Made by a program: the position numbers and the translations under genes. Positions 5,954-61,399 of a stretch of DNA of 64,000 nucleotides are shown in pieces. The DNA lies in assembly GCF_003946395.1 (NCBI RefSeq), contig NZ_RHNZ01000002.1:1-64000 (forward strand), read 5' to 3'. The DNA comes from Levilactobacillus fuyuanensis. Lineage in GTDB: Bacteria; Bacillota; Bacilli; Lactobacillales; Lactobacillaceae. The notes under the pieces are model-generated. The model saw only the letters and a program-made list of their open reading frames with translations, searched no databases and was not told the DNA's origin. Within the stretch, counting starts at the first letter, position 1. The number at the start of each line of letters is the position of its first letter.

Positions 5954-6823
5954 CTATTTAGTTGAAAGTTGACCGTTATTATAAATGACGGTCATTTGTT
6001 GGCCACTCAAAACAGCAGCTCCTAATTTACGTGGATGCTGCCAACTGATTCCAGCCAATGCGACTGCCGCTGCATCCATCGGCGTGCTACGAATTCCTTT
6101 GCGATTAGCTGGCAACATGTTAGGCCCGGTCTCCCAGACACTCATGACCTCCGGCGTAATGTAGCCGATGGCCCCGGCATTCCCGCCAGTCTTGCCACCG
6201 CCTAACGTCGGGATACCCAGTGCGTGTCCCATCTCACGAATCAGCACTGCCTCACGGTTATTCTGATCCTCAGCCGCGGTGAATCCCTTCGTCTTCCAAT
6301 TTGCCGGGTAGAATTTCATCCCCGTGCCATCGTACTGCTGACCACCAATGTATTTATCCTTACTCTTGGCATCATGGATAATCTCATCGCTGGCCTTCGC
6401 TTTATCGACAACCTGCACAATGTCATAACCAGCGACCCGATTCCAAAACGCAGCGGCATCCTTGACCATTGGCGTTGTCATCATCTTAGACTCGCTGTAT
6501 ATCTGTAAGATGCCATCGCTCCCCACAAAGTTTCGGATACTTTTACCATTCATTTTGTAAACGTGGCGGGTGGCAACTGCATCCAAACTATGATTACCCG
6601 TGTACTTTGTGCCATGGGTAATCTTGGTGAGCCGTTCGAGCTCTGACTGCTTATACGTTTTTAAATTGATGACGCCATCGACTGTATTCGTCGCCTTCGT
6701 CCGCTGATAATAGTGCGCATCGTCAGTCATCGAAGCATTCAACCGATTGAGCCCCATGAAGACACCCGCCACCACGAGTGCTAGGACTAACAGAATGGCC
6801 AGTCGTTTCGTTAATTTTGTCAT
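5954..6823 (-). CDS. Matrixin-like membrane-anchored protein with degenerate zinc site
   Basis: 289 aa with one N-terminal membrane segment (about residues 8-24) and an extracytoplasmic domain closely similar to the product of the gene immediately upstream. Where that paralog has HExxHxxGxxH, this protein has REMGHALGIPT at 196-206. The first zinc histidine is Arg (CGT) and the third is Thr (ACG), while Glu197 and His200 remain. The Met-turn region (PEVMSVW) is still recognisable. With two of three zinc ligands missing it is unlikely to be an active metalloprotease; a regulatory or substrate-binding pseudo-enzyme is the simplest reading. The ATG overlaps the upstream stop as ATGA and follows GGGGGAG, so translation is probably coupled. 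Confidence 0.85.
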   Translation of the reverse strand: MTKLTKRLAILLVLALVVAGVFMGLNRLNASMTDDAHYYQRTKATNTVDGVINLKTYKQSELERLTKITHGTKYTGNHSLDAVATRHVYKMNGKSIRNFVGSDGILQIYSESKMMTTPMVKDAAAFWNRVAGYDIVQVVDKAKASDEIIHDAKSKDKYIGGQQYDGTGMKFYPANWKTKGFTAAEDQNNREAVLIREMGHALGIPTLGGGKTGGNAGAIGYITPEVMSVWETGPNMLPANRKGIRSTPMDAAAVALAGISWQHPRKLGAAVLSGQQMTVIYNNGQLSTK

Positions 6824-7686
6824 GCTTCACTCCCCCGTGGAATTGTTGACGTTAATTTTCCGTGATTGTAGGTGACCGCAGCCGTTGGGGTCGTCAGCAC
6901 CCAGCTAGCCAATTTACGCGGTCGTTGCCAGCTCAAACCAGCAAGGGCCAGTGCCGCCGCATCAACCGCCGTACTGCGCACACCCAAAGGATTACGCACC
7001 GGTCGCCACGGCGCCATGAACTCCGTCGTGATGATTCCTGAACTGGCCGCGTTCCCACCCAGTGGTCCGCCACCCAAGTGTGGAATGCCTAAGGCGTGGC
7101 CAATCTCATGAATCAGTGCCGCTTCCTGCCAATTCTTCTGATCCTTGGCTGAGAGGCCACTCAGGTGCCAATTTTGAGGAAAAAACACCAAGCCTTGGCC
7201 GTTGTAAGCCTGTCGTCCTAAGACACCACGCTGAATCTCATCGTCATGAATCACCTCATCGCTTAGCCGCTGACTGTCGACAACTTCAACGATTTGAGCA
7301 CCTGCGATCTGATTCCAGTAAGCAGCCGCATCTCGAACCATTGCCGTCGTCATAAAATTAGATTTGTTGTACAGCTGCAGCACGCCATCCTGCCCAACAA
7401 TGTTCGGAAGTGGCTTCCCCTCCAATTGATAGGCATACTTCGTCGCGGCCAGATCCAAGCTCGTATTGCCATGATATTGGCCGCCATGCGTTATCTGCGT
7501 CAACTTGGTCAGCTCTTCTTGGGAATAGTACCCTCGCGCAATGGTCCCACGATTATCGGTCTTCGTTCGCTGATAGTAGTGTCGGTTCGGACCGCCTACG
7601 ACACGCTGCGTGACCTGATATCCCAAAAATCCAACGAGAATAATTCCCAAGATTACAGCCATCCAGATTCCTCCTGAACGATGCAT
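6820..7686 (-). CDS. Matrixin-family (M10-like) membrane-anchored zinc metalloprotease
   Basis: 288 aa. I start it at the ATG at 7686, 7 nt after AAGGAGG; the in-frame GTG at 7692 is only 1 nt from that site. A membrane segment at about residues 8-26 places the catalytic domain outside the cell. The full zinc motif HEIGHALGIPH is at 193-203 (His193, Glu194, His197, His203), followed by a Met-turn (EFMAPW). The gene lies between the adhesin and the glycosyltransferases and shares a coupled transcript with its degenerate paralog, so processing or shedding of the adhesin is a reasonable guess. No substrate can be read from the sequence. Confidence 0.9.
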   Translation of the reverse strand: MHRSGGIWMAVILGIILVGFLGYQVTQRVVGGPNRHYYQRTKTDNRGTIARGYYSQEELTKLTQITHGGQYHGNTSLDLAATKYAYQLEGKPLPNIVGQDGVLQLYNKSNFMTTAMVRDAAAYWNQIAGAQIVEVVDSQRLSDEVIHDDEIQRGVLGRQAYNGQGLVFFPQNWHLSGLSAKDQKNWQEAALIHEIGHALGIPHLGGGPLGGNAASSGIITTEFMAPWRPVRNPLGVRSTAVDAAALALAGLSWQRPRKLASWVLTTPTAAVTYNHGKLTSTIPRGSEA

Positions 7687-14438: not shown

Positions 14439-15098
14439 TCAATCTTCCTTACTGTGAGGTGAGTCCGGAGAATCCCCACCAGCGCCATTTTTCGGCGTAT
14501 AGTGTTGGGCTTCCTGAATCTCTTCTCGAATTTCGGACATTTCCGTGTCCAACTTGAAAGCGGCCTCCGCCGCTCGCTGGAGCCGTGCGCTCAGCTCTGT
14601 CGGGAAGTCACCTTGGTACTTATAATTCAATGAATGTTCAATCGTTGCCCAGAAATTCATGGCCAATGTCCGCACCTGAATCTCTGCTAAAATTTTCTTT
14701 TCTCCCGTGACCAATTGGACCGGATACTCAATCACAATGTGATAAGACCGGTAGCCACTGGGCTTTTCGTTATGGATGTAATCGCGTTCCTCAAGAATCG
14801 TCAGGTCCGTCCGCTGCCGAAGCAGGTCGACCACTTGGTAGATATCCTCAACAAATTGGCACATAATACGTAGTCCCGCAATGTCTTGCATATCTTGTTC
14901 CAAGCGTTCCTCGGCCACGTGCCGACGGGTCATCTTTTCCACGATACTGGGTACCGGTTTGACCCGTCCGGTAACAAACTCAATGGGCGGCCGCTGATTG
15001 CGATTCTCAAATTGCTTTCGGATACCGCGGAGCTTGACTTTCAGCTCACTCACGGCCTGTTGATAGGGCAATAAAAATTGATCCCAATTTGCTATCAT
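14439..15098 (-). CDS. relQ: Small (p)ppGpp synthetase RelQ (GTP pyrophosphokinase)
   Basis: 219 aa from the ATG at 15098 behind GGGGGAT; upstream codons in the same frame lack a ribosome binding site. Recognisable RelA/SpoT synthetase elements include [23 protein letters not shown] and [10 protein letters not shown], with no HD hydrolase domain or TGS/ACT domains, and the length is normal for RelQ (about 210-220). It transfers pyrophosphate from ATP to GTP/GDP in stress signalling. First gene of the relQ-nadK-rluD unit. Confidence 0.94.
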
Positions 15099-15325
15099 GA
15101 CGACTATCCCCCAACCTTTAATACACAGCTTACCTTTGAATTTTACCATAATTCAGCCGGAACCGAGACTAATTACTTGGTATCATCCCGTTAAATTTCA
15201 AAGTTCCTGCCAGTTTTGATTTCACGAGGCGTTTAGCTTTACCTCCGGCCAAAAATGTTGCATGATTAGGTTGCGTTTTAAACGGACGGGATTCACCTCA
15301 AACAAACGTTTGGATTGCTATTTTT

Positions 15326-51040: not shown

Positions 51041-51718
51041 TTAGTGCAGCGTCGCAATCATCACAGCCACCGCAATCAAATTATTAAATCCGTGCAGGAT
51101 AATCGTTGTCTGAAGCTTGTCCGTCTTCCGGTAAATGTAGGCGAACGTGCCCCCCATCAAGGCGTAGATCAGCCAACTAATAATGTTGTCGCTCTGGTGG
51201 ACCAGCGAGAAGACAACGCCACTGGTGATGACTGGTATCCAAAACATCTTGGCTGGGAAACATCCCCCAACGAGGATTCCCCGGAAGGTCAGTTCCTCCA
51301 GAAATGGCGAGGCTAAAACGGCTGTCAGGCTGAGCATCACCAGGGTCAGCGAGCTATGACCCATAATGTCAGCAATCAGAGTGTTATTCTTCGTACTGGT
51401 TTCACCGAAGAAAACGTTATTGACCACATTTAACACAATCTCCGCAGCAATAATGAACACGTATCCCTTGACCATCAATTGCCAGTCCTGCCGTGTCAAT
51501 CGCTGCCAGTGCACGGGATGCACCTGCCGAAAGATCCAAGCACCCAACGCAATTGCCACGGCAAAACCAACCAAGTAGCCAGCCGCCCACAGCCCACGAT
51601 TCAGCGTGGTGCCGTGCGCCATAAAATTCAGTGGAATCTGAACCACCGACGTCACGACGATCATAATCAAGACCCATCCAAAATTCCAATAATTATTTGG
51701 TTGCTGCTTAGTTTTCAC
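51041..51718 (-). CDS. CPBP-family intramembrane metalloprotease
   Basis: 225 aa, mostly membrane segments. Motif 1 is EELTFRG (EExxxR), motif 2 is FSLVHQ (FxxxH) and the C-terminal ILHGFNNL completes the Abi/CPBP signature. Such proteins resemble Rce1 and are linked in lactobacilli to bacteriocin self-immunity or signal processing. No bacteriocin gene is nearby, so its role is open. Confidence 0.92.
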   Translation of the reverse strand: MKTKQQPNNYWNFGWVLIMIVVTSVVQIPLNFMAHGTTLNRGLWAAGYLVGFAVAIALGAWIFRQVHPVHWQRLTRQDWQLMVKGYVFIIAAEIVLNVVNNVFFGETSTKNNTLIADIMGHSSLTLVMLSLTAVLASPFLEELTFRGILVGGCFPAKMFWIPVITSGVVFSLVHQSDNIISWLIYALMGGTFAYIYRKTDKLQTTIILHGFNNLIAVAVMIATLH

Positions 51719-51874
51719 GTTATCATTCCCTCTATCACTTTGTTTTTTTGCCGAACAAACCCATAACCCGTCTAGGTTACCACTGTTTCTCGAGTTCTAT
51801 TAAAAACCGCAAAAAGTTTGCCAAATATTTATTTTTTAATGGCATTTTTTCTTGTTCTGCGTTACTATAAGGTT

Positions 51875-52044
51875 GCGGGTAAGTTTGAACTAACCTTCTG
51901 CTTACGCGTGAGGCTTCTGTCCTCATTCAACAGACAGATTTCATTTTACTCCCCCAAAGTAGATGAAATTTTTACAACATAATCCCCCAATTATGTTGTA
52001 ACCTTACTCTTTGGCCATTGCGACTTATCGTAATGGCTTTTTTT
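51875..52044 (+). ncRNA. Candidate small RNA with two CCCCC loops
   Basis: In a 364-bp gene-free gap, a weak promoter (ATGGCA, 18 nt, TACTAT) precedes a chain of hairpins. After a TGAGG/CCTCA stem come stem 1 (51938-51969, ATTTCAT/ATGAAAT and TACT/AGTA) with loop CCCCCAA, and stem 2 (51972-52001, perfect TTACAACATAAT/ATTATGTTGTAA) with loop CCCCCA. An intrinsic terminator GCCATTgCG/CGtAATGGC with TTTTTTT ends it at 52044. C-rich loops are typical of Gram-positive small RNAs that pair with Shine-Dalgarno sequences. The 5' end is approximate. Confidence 0.62.
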
Positions 52045-52082: not shown

Positions 52083-52286
52083 CTATTCATCGTCATCTTC
52101 AAATGGTCGGTGTGGCCACAACGTCCAGTACAAGAAGAAGTTGACCACCGTCGCCAGCAGTAACCCGCCAAAACCGACCGCAATCTTCACCCAACCAACG
52201 AGGGCCCACGCCAGCAATCCCCAGAGGGTGCCACCGATAATGAGGCCAGTCGCCAAGACAATTAGGATCATCGTTAACACTTTCAA
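52083..52286 (-). CDS. Small two-helix membrane protein
   Basis: 67 aa. It starts with TTG at 52286 about 9 nt after AAGGGAG. Two hydrophobic segments (about 4-26 and 31-54) and an acidic tail (FEDDDE). I do not recognise a family. No terminator is clear. Confidence 0.6.
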   Translation of the reverse strand: MKVLTMILIVLATGLIIGGTLWGLLAWALVGWVKIAVGFGGLLLATVVNFFLYWTLWPHRPFEDDDE

Positions 52287-59968: not shown

Positions 59969-61156
59969 TTATTTGCAAGCAGCCTTTAACGCATCGACCT
60001 TGTCTGTATGTTCCCAAGGCAAATCGATGTCGGTCCGACCAAAGTGGCCGTATGCGGCAGTTTGCTTGTAAATTGGCCGCTTTAAGTCGAGCATCTTGAT
60101 GATGCCGGCTGGACGCAAGTCAAAGAGTTGACGAACGGCTGCAGCTAATTTACTTTCCGAAACGACCCCAGTGCCGAACGTGTTGATGGAAACGGAAACG
60201 GGTTCCGCCACACCAATCGCGTAGGCAATCTGAACTTCACATTCAGTTGCCAACTTGGCAGCGACAATGTTCTTGGCAATGTACCGTGCAGCGTAACTTG
60301 CTGAGCGGTCCACCTTCGTGGCGTCCTTCCCAGAGAAGGCCCCACCACCATGGTGAGCAGCCCCACCGTACGTGTCGACGATAATCTTACGACCCGTCAA
60401 TCCGGCATCCCCTTGAGGACCTCCGATGACGAAACGACCGGTTGGGTTGATGAAGTACTTCGTCTTGTCATCTAACAGGTGGGCGGGAATAACTTCCTTA
60501 ACCACCTGATCGATCACGTCTTGACGAATCTGGTCCAACGTCACGTCTGGATCATGTTGCGTACTCAAGACAACTGTGTCGACCCGCAATGGCTTGCCAT
60601 TATCGTCGTATTCAACGGTAACTTCTGCCTTAGCATCTGGCCGTAAATAATCAATGGTGCCCATCTTCCGCAAGCTGGCGATCCGACGCATCAAGGCGTG
60701 GCTCAACGTGATGGGAAGTGGCATCAATTCTGGCGTTTCGTCGATGGCGTAACCAAACATTAACCCTTGGTCACCGGCACCAATCTTGTCCAGTGGATCT
60801 TCATCACCTTCACGCGTTTCGTAAGAGTCATCGACCCCTTGCGCAATGTCGGGTGATTGTTCGTCGATAGCGACGAGGACGGCACAGTTGTCACCGTCAA
60901 AGCCGTATTGACCGTCCGTGTACCCAATTTCTTTGATGGTTTGACGAACGACCTTTTGGATGTCCACGTATGCTTTGGTAGAGATTTCACCGAAGACCAG
61001 TACTAAACCGGTCGTAACGGACGTCTCGCAGGCAACCCGTGAATCCGGATCCTGAGCCAGTAAAGCATCTAAGATGGCGTCGCTGATTTGATCAGCAATT
61101 TTATCTGGATGCCCTTCTGAAACGGATTCCGACGTAAATAAATGTCTTTCTTGCAA
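59969..61156 (-). CDS. metK: S-adenosylmethionine synthase
   Basis: 395 aa. It starts with TTG at 61156, 8 nt after the GGGGG of the riboswitch. [28 protein letters not shown] and [16 protein letters not shown] are the MetK signatures. It makes S-adenosylmethionine from methionine and ATP. Expression is expected to be switched off at translation when SAM binds the leader. Confidence 0.97.
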
Positions 61157-61160
61157 TGGA

Positions 61161-61258
61161 TATTCCCCCTAGATAGTGTTGACGACGAGTTGACCGATAA
61201 TCTCGCGCCAGTCGGTTACAAGGCAGCTTCACTGAGTTCGTGAATCCTATCGGGAATT
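61161..61258 (-). promoter_or_regulatory. SMK box (SAM-III) riboswitch of metK
   Basis: On the minus strand ATTCCCGATAGGAT, GCCTTGTAACCGA and AGGGGGAAT appear in the order of the SMK box. The ATTCCC strand can pair with GGGGGAAT, which contains the Shine-Dalgarno sequence of metK, so SAM binding hides the ribosome site. The P3 and linker regions are longer than in the Enterococcus minimal element. Confidence 0.93.
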
Positions 61259-61399
61259 GACTCATAACTTAAGCATTCTAACATATATTAATGAGGGATA
61301 AAAGAAACCTTGGCGTTTTTTTCAAAGAATGATTGACCAGGGTCAAAACAATATCTATTATAAAGGATAAGACTAAATCAGTTGAAACGGAGCGATTCC

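Follow-up and report, generated by a model that had tools for sequence, protein, structure and literature searches.

The window, a 64,000-nucleotide stretch of a Levilactobacillus fuyuanensis contig, carries at positions 51875–52044 of its forward strand a free-standing unit composed of a conserved −10-like box, two hairpins with CCCCCA loops, and an intrinsic terminator. According to the open reading frame (ORF) list, the unit is flanked upstream by a divergent gene for a CPBP-type membrane protease (51041–51718, − strand) and downstream by a convergent 67-amino-acid ORF (52083–52286, − strand). The next + strand gene encodes a glycoside phosphorylase and starts 500 nt downstream of the unit, which itself contains no + strand ORF of at least 60 amino acids in the ORF list for the region. 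The original prediction described two adjacent CCCCCA-loop stems, one of them a perfect 12 bp, and a terminator; both hairpins and the terminator were found in the places it gave. The features are collected in Table 1. The −35-like hexamer is listed only as a putative element because it scores below the threshold of the promoter scan.

Table 1. Features of the candidate small RNA (sRNA) gene, its paralogues in the same genome, and its best candidate target (SD, Shine-Dalgarno)
Feature	Position	Strand	Remarks
Weak −35-like ATGGCA	51839..51844	+	putative; 18 nt before the −10 box; partly conserved in genus
−10-like box TACTAT	51863..51868	+	little change across 30 aligned genus sequences; followed by conserved GTTGCGG
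Predicted sRNA transcript, ~170 nt	51875..52044	+	fold z −6.84; 36/36 genus genomes; start placed by −10 spacing
Near-invariant core	51907..52043	+	covariance models R1 (169 bits) and R2 (131 bits)
Junction-closing helix, 5' arm GUGAGG	51908..51913	+	from fold; pairs with 52002–52007; weakest helix
Hairpin 1	~51938..51970	+	loop CCCCCAA, 51951–51957; motif ACUCCYCCAAAGU
Hairpin 2	51972..52001	+	perfect 12 bp, 51972–51983 with 51990–52001; loop CCCCCA, 51984–51989
Linker CCUUACUCUUUGG	52002..52014	+	counterpart in other genera, CCUUACUCCUUU (anti-SD)
Intrinsic terminator	52013..52044	+	11 bp stem, CUUA loop, U tract
sRNA-like gene B	G000:C52:126215-126318 (about 126190-126320; L035, L036 4180-4322)		adjoins degV-family gene
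sRNA-like unit C	L036 2640-2750		CACUCCCCCCAAAAC in hairpin, then strong terminator; 1.5 kb from sRNA B
Paralogue D	L272 1464-1605	−	model R2, 44 bits; operator-bearing
Paralogue E	L273 1493-1642	−	model R2, 34 bits; operator-bearing
Probable paralogue F	L284 about 1360-1470	−	operator-bearing
Candidate target, relQ SD region UUGGGGGA	15107..15114	−	relQ ORF 14439–15098 (−)

The predicted minimum free energy (MFE) of the 170-nt sequence is −53.4 kcal/mol, as compared to −27.1 ± 3.8 kcal/mol for shuffled sequences (z −6.84; 0 of 200 shuffles). The MFE and centroid folds concur, with the junction closed by GUGAGG/CCUUAC. The CCCCCA hexamer is not rare in itself, occurring 22 times in the window against 32 expected by chance. 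The pattern CTCCCCCAAAGT, by comparison, occurs about 87 times in 36 Levilactobacillus genomes versus twice for the reversed pattern. The unit was detected by blastn in all 36 Levilactobacillus genomes (its own and 35 others), and the mean pairwise identity of its core is 97.8% over 276 species pairs. In the same genomes, relQ third codon positions are 55% identical and the DNA upstream of the sRNA promoter is 60% identical; in every one of the 276 pairs the core is more similar than the relQ wobble positions. Both loops are invariant in 30 aligned genus sequences save for one C→T change (CCCTC) in a single species. It is the conservation of the unit, not the mere presence of CCCCCA, that exceeds chance, and this pattern indicates strong selection on the sequence at the RNA level. 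No covariation is seen within the genus because the sequence is too conserved there.

A covariance search of the Lactobacillaceae, suggested alongside the original prediction, returned homologues in other genera (12 of 40 with model R1), with covarying stems. Compensatory change is found at 44 of 47 pairs among 75 homologues, 68 of them distinct. Cells with compensatory change on both sides number 811, versus 230 in shuffled and 114–169 in slid controls; because fitting the alignment (A3) to the model structure biases the count in the structure's favour, the slid controls weigh more than the shuffles. Across homologues, hairpin 1 is paired in 95.7% of cells and its motif is present in all genera found. 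Hairpin 2 is paired in 89.8% of cells and covaries at 12 of 12 pairs, and the junction-closing helix is paired in 72%, with compensatory change at 6 of 6 pairs. Loop 1 reads CUCCYCCAAAG throughout the homologues, a constancy that is partly selected because the motif belonged to the scan pattern. Loop 2 is C-rich in nearly all sequences (CCCCCA, CUCCCCA, CCUCCCAA, CGCCCA or similar). In most genera loop 1 is CUCCUCC, a perfect anti-SD sequence, and the linker CCUUACUCCUUU there is also anti-SD. Among the cross-genus sequences compared, only those of Levilactobacillus and a single Lactiplantibacillus copy show the CCCCC form; beyond that set, it recurs in a few more distant paralogues. The terminator loop, CUUA in the Levilactobacillus copy, is C-rich in several other genera.

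The CCCCC-type copy of L. plantarum is a true orthologue: its neighbour is the same CPBP-protease gene; the same MarR-like gene lies close by. A wide scan with a pattern comprising loop 1 and the linker over 84,980 species gave 93 matches, all 93 in records named Lactobacillaceae, from Levilactobacillus, Lactiplantibacillus, Loigolactobacillus, Lacticaseibacillus, Agrilactobacillus, and two smaller lineages. There is strong support for the earlier proposal that function resides in the loops: across genera the stems are rewritten around a fixed loop 1 and a loop 2 that remains C-rich, and the loop CACUCCCCCAAAGU recurs on another stem. These data make it almost certain, as far as sequence can tell, that 51875–52044 is a genuine conserved sRNA gene.

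The second stem belongs to a paralogue. Model R2, trained only on Lactobacillaceae members, places in this genome the window sRNA (sRNA A) and paralogues B, D, and E, and inspection adds C and F as further candidates. The family thus has 4–6 members here, and at least 5 in L. plantarum. Levilactobacillus genomes have about two CTCCCCCAAAGT sites each, the second being gene B, which carries the same 14-nt loop as sRNA A on a different stem, followed by GUAUCCCCCCUCAAG and a terminator. Gene B is genus-wide and present in at least 12 species; paralogue D has counterparts in almost every Levilactobacillus species. Two of four other CTCCCCCAAAG sites in the genome (L032, L034) were rejected as coding or chance, and the hairpin at the CTCCCCCAAAG site C45:50889 is not followed by a terminator. 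Separately, repeats of GTATTCCCCACAGGTGTGGGGGTGATCC at G000:C51 about 690–800 (L298) resemble a type I-E CRISPR array.

At gathering scores, Rfam gives no match for the window sRNA. The best sub-threshold match, LhrC (RF00616), reaches 25.3 bits (E 0.077) and fails the gathering score of 110, and the Ref84 model (RF02846) reaches 20.5 bits, below its gathering score of 52. A likeness to RsaE/RoxS, raised in the original prediction, is unsupported: Rfam gave no match to it, whether at the gathering score or with E relaxed to 10. In contrast, the comparison with LhrC made there holds in part. With model R2, 37 of 80 Lactobacillales genera yield members (E-values of these quickly calibrated models are rough), and the model recovers both the LhrC of Listeria (clusters L271 and L278; 27–46 bits) and Enterococcus-type Ref84. 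The likeness therefore stands as one of architecture and probable superfamily, but the Rfam LhrC score stays below gathering. Under our working definition of an LhrC-like superfamily, in which a Lactobacillaceae-trained model recovers LhrC, the window RNA is LhrC-like; by the Rfam definition it is not an LhrC. Among the other loci, L113 564–651 (− strand) of Loigolactobacillus rennini matches the RatA RNA antitoxin at 62 bits (gathering 49).

LhrC1–5 of Listeria resemble the window RNA in being multi-copy (here A, B, D, and E, likely also C and F) and in having a UUUCAUU..AAUGAAA-type hairpin with a C-rich loop, a C-rich single-stranded stretch, and a terminator. The UCCC motif of LhrC hairpin loop A has its equivalent in the invariant ACUCCCCCAAAGU loop. 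However, UCCC is absent from the linker and terminator loop of the window RNA, which lack CCC altogether; compared with LhrC, the window RNA is longer in its 5' part and has hairpin 2 in addition. Neither RNA has the TTCACA repeat described below. LhrC is under a two-component system, as the sister sRNAs of the window RNA likely are. Homology to LhrC is likely, although short C-rich hairpins and terminators could converge. Streptococcal csRNAs of the CiaRH regulon are several C-rich paralogues that block SD sites under one response regulator. They are likened to the present family by analogy; their CiaR operator, made of TTTAAG repeats, differs, and the window RNA has neither an Rfam csRNA match nor a family-type operator. 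R2-positive loci from other Lactobacillales families match Ref84 of Enterococcus, and one of them (L279) scores 68.4 bits against a gathering score of 52. Ref84 has a C/U-rich stretch UACUCCUUUU before its terminator and is shorter than the window RNA. In L. casei BL23, two sRNAs, sLCB266.5+ and sLCB2938, are reported to be similar to Enterococcus sRNA families, and Northern signals were obtained for sLCB266.5+ and sLCB2938+ (PMC8220740). Described in L. casei only, they are probably family members, set beside the family by description rather than sequence. We found no description of the family in the open-access literature searched.

Outside Levilactobacillus-A, a TTCACA-N5-TTCACA direct repeat (at least 10 of 12 positions) lies upstream of 46 of 46 distinct members, with a mean score of 11.2 versus 7.7 in shuffles. 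Several homologues in other families also carry it. In the L. plantarum genome, the three top-scoring operator sites each lie ahead of a family sRNA. OmpR-type response regulators, PhoP for example, typically recognise 11-bp direct repeats like this one. It is probable, from this operator, that one OmpR-type response regulator governs the wider family, the Levilactobacillus-A copy excepted. At the cut-off of 10 of 12 positions, 0 of 7 distinct Levilactobacillus-A promoters, including that of the window sRNA, have the repeat. Its promoter sequences indicate that the Levilactobacillus copy has lost the operator and has its own conserved promoter, and for this reason it probably lies outside the two-component regulon. 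A motif search of 8-kb loci found no OmpR-type regulator gene beside the sRNAs, and the operator regulon yielded no convincing protein-coding member, with one weak case (L295). There, at 1500–1600 (− strand), a TTCACA-type repeat precedes a predicted secreted-protein gene, a possible protein-coding regulon member.

The best target candidate is relQ, one of the two targets suggested with the original prediction, and it gains support here: 28 of the 28 Levilactobacillus orthologues with a readable start have the invariant SD UUGGGGGA (2 of 30 loci were not parsed), which can pair over 8 nt with both loops. The sequence GTTGGGGGA, kept at these 28 relQ loci, is complementary to the UCCCCCAA that both loops contain. 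Outside Levilactobacillus the relQ SD is ordinary, for example GGAGG in Lactiplantibacillus. Because Lactiplantibacillus has a CCCCC orthologue yet a GGAGG relQ SD, relQ would be at most a lineage-specific target. The other proposed target, metK, was rejected, as its GGGGG is the SD of a SAM-III (SMK box) riboswitch (61154–61272, − strand) and needs no sRNA. In many species, a family-2 glycosyltransferase (GT2) gene has CUUUGGGGGA-like SDs in diverged contexts. Its CUUUGGGG(G)A is complementary to loop 1 in many, not all, Levilactobacillus species; several GT2 genes of the genus carry GGGGAGG or GAGGG instead. UGGGGGA starts in the own genome include those of a polysaccharide deacetylase, a lipoprotein, an ion channel, and an ABC ATPase, named by reading their sequences. 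GT2 and these genes are leads only, such matches being cheap. Loop-SD complementarity alone is weak evidence because purine-rich SDs generally resemble GGGGG. For the same reason, the genome-wide count of TGGGGGAN{2,12}ATG, 49 versus 20 in reversed controls, is uninformative. Target prediction drew on sequence patterns and selected orthologues. In the window, at 6821–6836 (− strand), the start of a small membrane-anchored protein has the SD GGGGGAGUG, with 8 nt complementary to loop 1.

Taken together, the sequence comparisons suggest that 51875–52044 very probably encodes a regulatory sRNA, near-unchanged in one genus and part of an order-wide multi-copy family. We consider it likely to be a trans-acting, LhrC-like, Hfq-independent antisense sRNA of this Lactobacillales family that blocks SD sites, and SD blocking by the loops is, with similar confidence, the likeliest mode. 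The predicted junction exposes UCCCCCAA/UCCCCCAAAG on its two hairpins, and these loops would be the first to touch the G-rich ribosome-binding sites, (U)UGGGGGA, of target mRNAs, among them relQ and those of some envelope genes. Pairing would block translation initiation, and degradation of the target mRNA may follow. The loops appear redundant, and sister sRNAs with the same seed probably have common targets. LhrC, controlled by LisRK, likewise blocks the lapB SD via redundant UCCC motifs and does not need Hfq (PMC4132741). Because lactobacilli have no Hfq (PMC4132741), the extended G-C-rich pairing of the loops would act unaided.

Alternatively, the repeated C-rich loops could act as a decoy that titrates an RNA-binding protein or G-rich sister RNAs without mRNA pairing. 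Several identical loops do sit on different scaffolds, near identical in many paralogues, and protein-titrating RNAs such as CsrB look alike. However, we know of no such C-binding protein in lactobacilli, the loop in most genera is the anti-SD CUCCUCC, and LhrC, the closest experimentally studied relative, pairs with mRNA (PMC4132741), so that we regard the decoy as unlikely. A structured noncoding RNA with another role (6S-like, a small-protein mRNA, or antitoxin-like), its C loops being incidental, would fit the lack of an Rfam match, and the exceptional conservation could reflect a housekeeping role. This reading is rather improbable given that conservation maps to the loops while the stems covary, that the ORF list shows no + strand ORF of at least 60 amino acids in the region, and that the family model recovers LhrC and Ref84. 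A cis element, namely a leader or attenuator of a neighbouring gene or a structured 3' UTR, could look to the glycoside phosphorylase gene downstream but is highly improbable, as a strong terminator closes the unit, the adjacent genes are divergent and convergent, L. plantarum has a different downstream gene (MarR-like, convergent), and paralogues lie in unrelated contexts.

Under the favoured reading, a trans-acting sRNA that blocks SD sites, the Levilactobacillus copy probably acts outside the OmpR-type two-component regulon of its sisters, with a CCCCC seed in place of the CUCCUCC of most relatives. A wider proposal is tentative, and we lean somewhat against it: a single ancient, Hfq-independent sRNA regulon may be common to the Lactobacillales, and LhrC and Ref84 would be those of its outliers that already have names. 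Most copies would serve one OmpR-type two-component system, which recognises TTCACA repeats, as its post-transcriptional arm. One Levilactobacillus copy would have become uncoupled and frozen, its seed retuned from anti-GGAGG to anti-GGGGG in step with selected targets, relQ among them, and this would tie it to the stringent response. Lactobacilli have no Hfq, and their trans-acting sRNAs have been mapped only sparsely. The present family spans the main food and probiotic genera, and its visible common operator and readable seeds make the regulon directly testable. It also ties the isolated LhrC and Ref84 into a wider group, and the possible relQ link, if true, would connect an sRNA with alarmone control.
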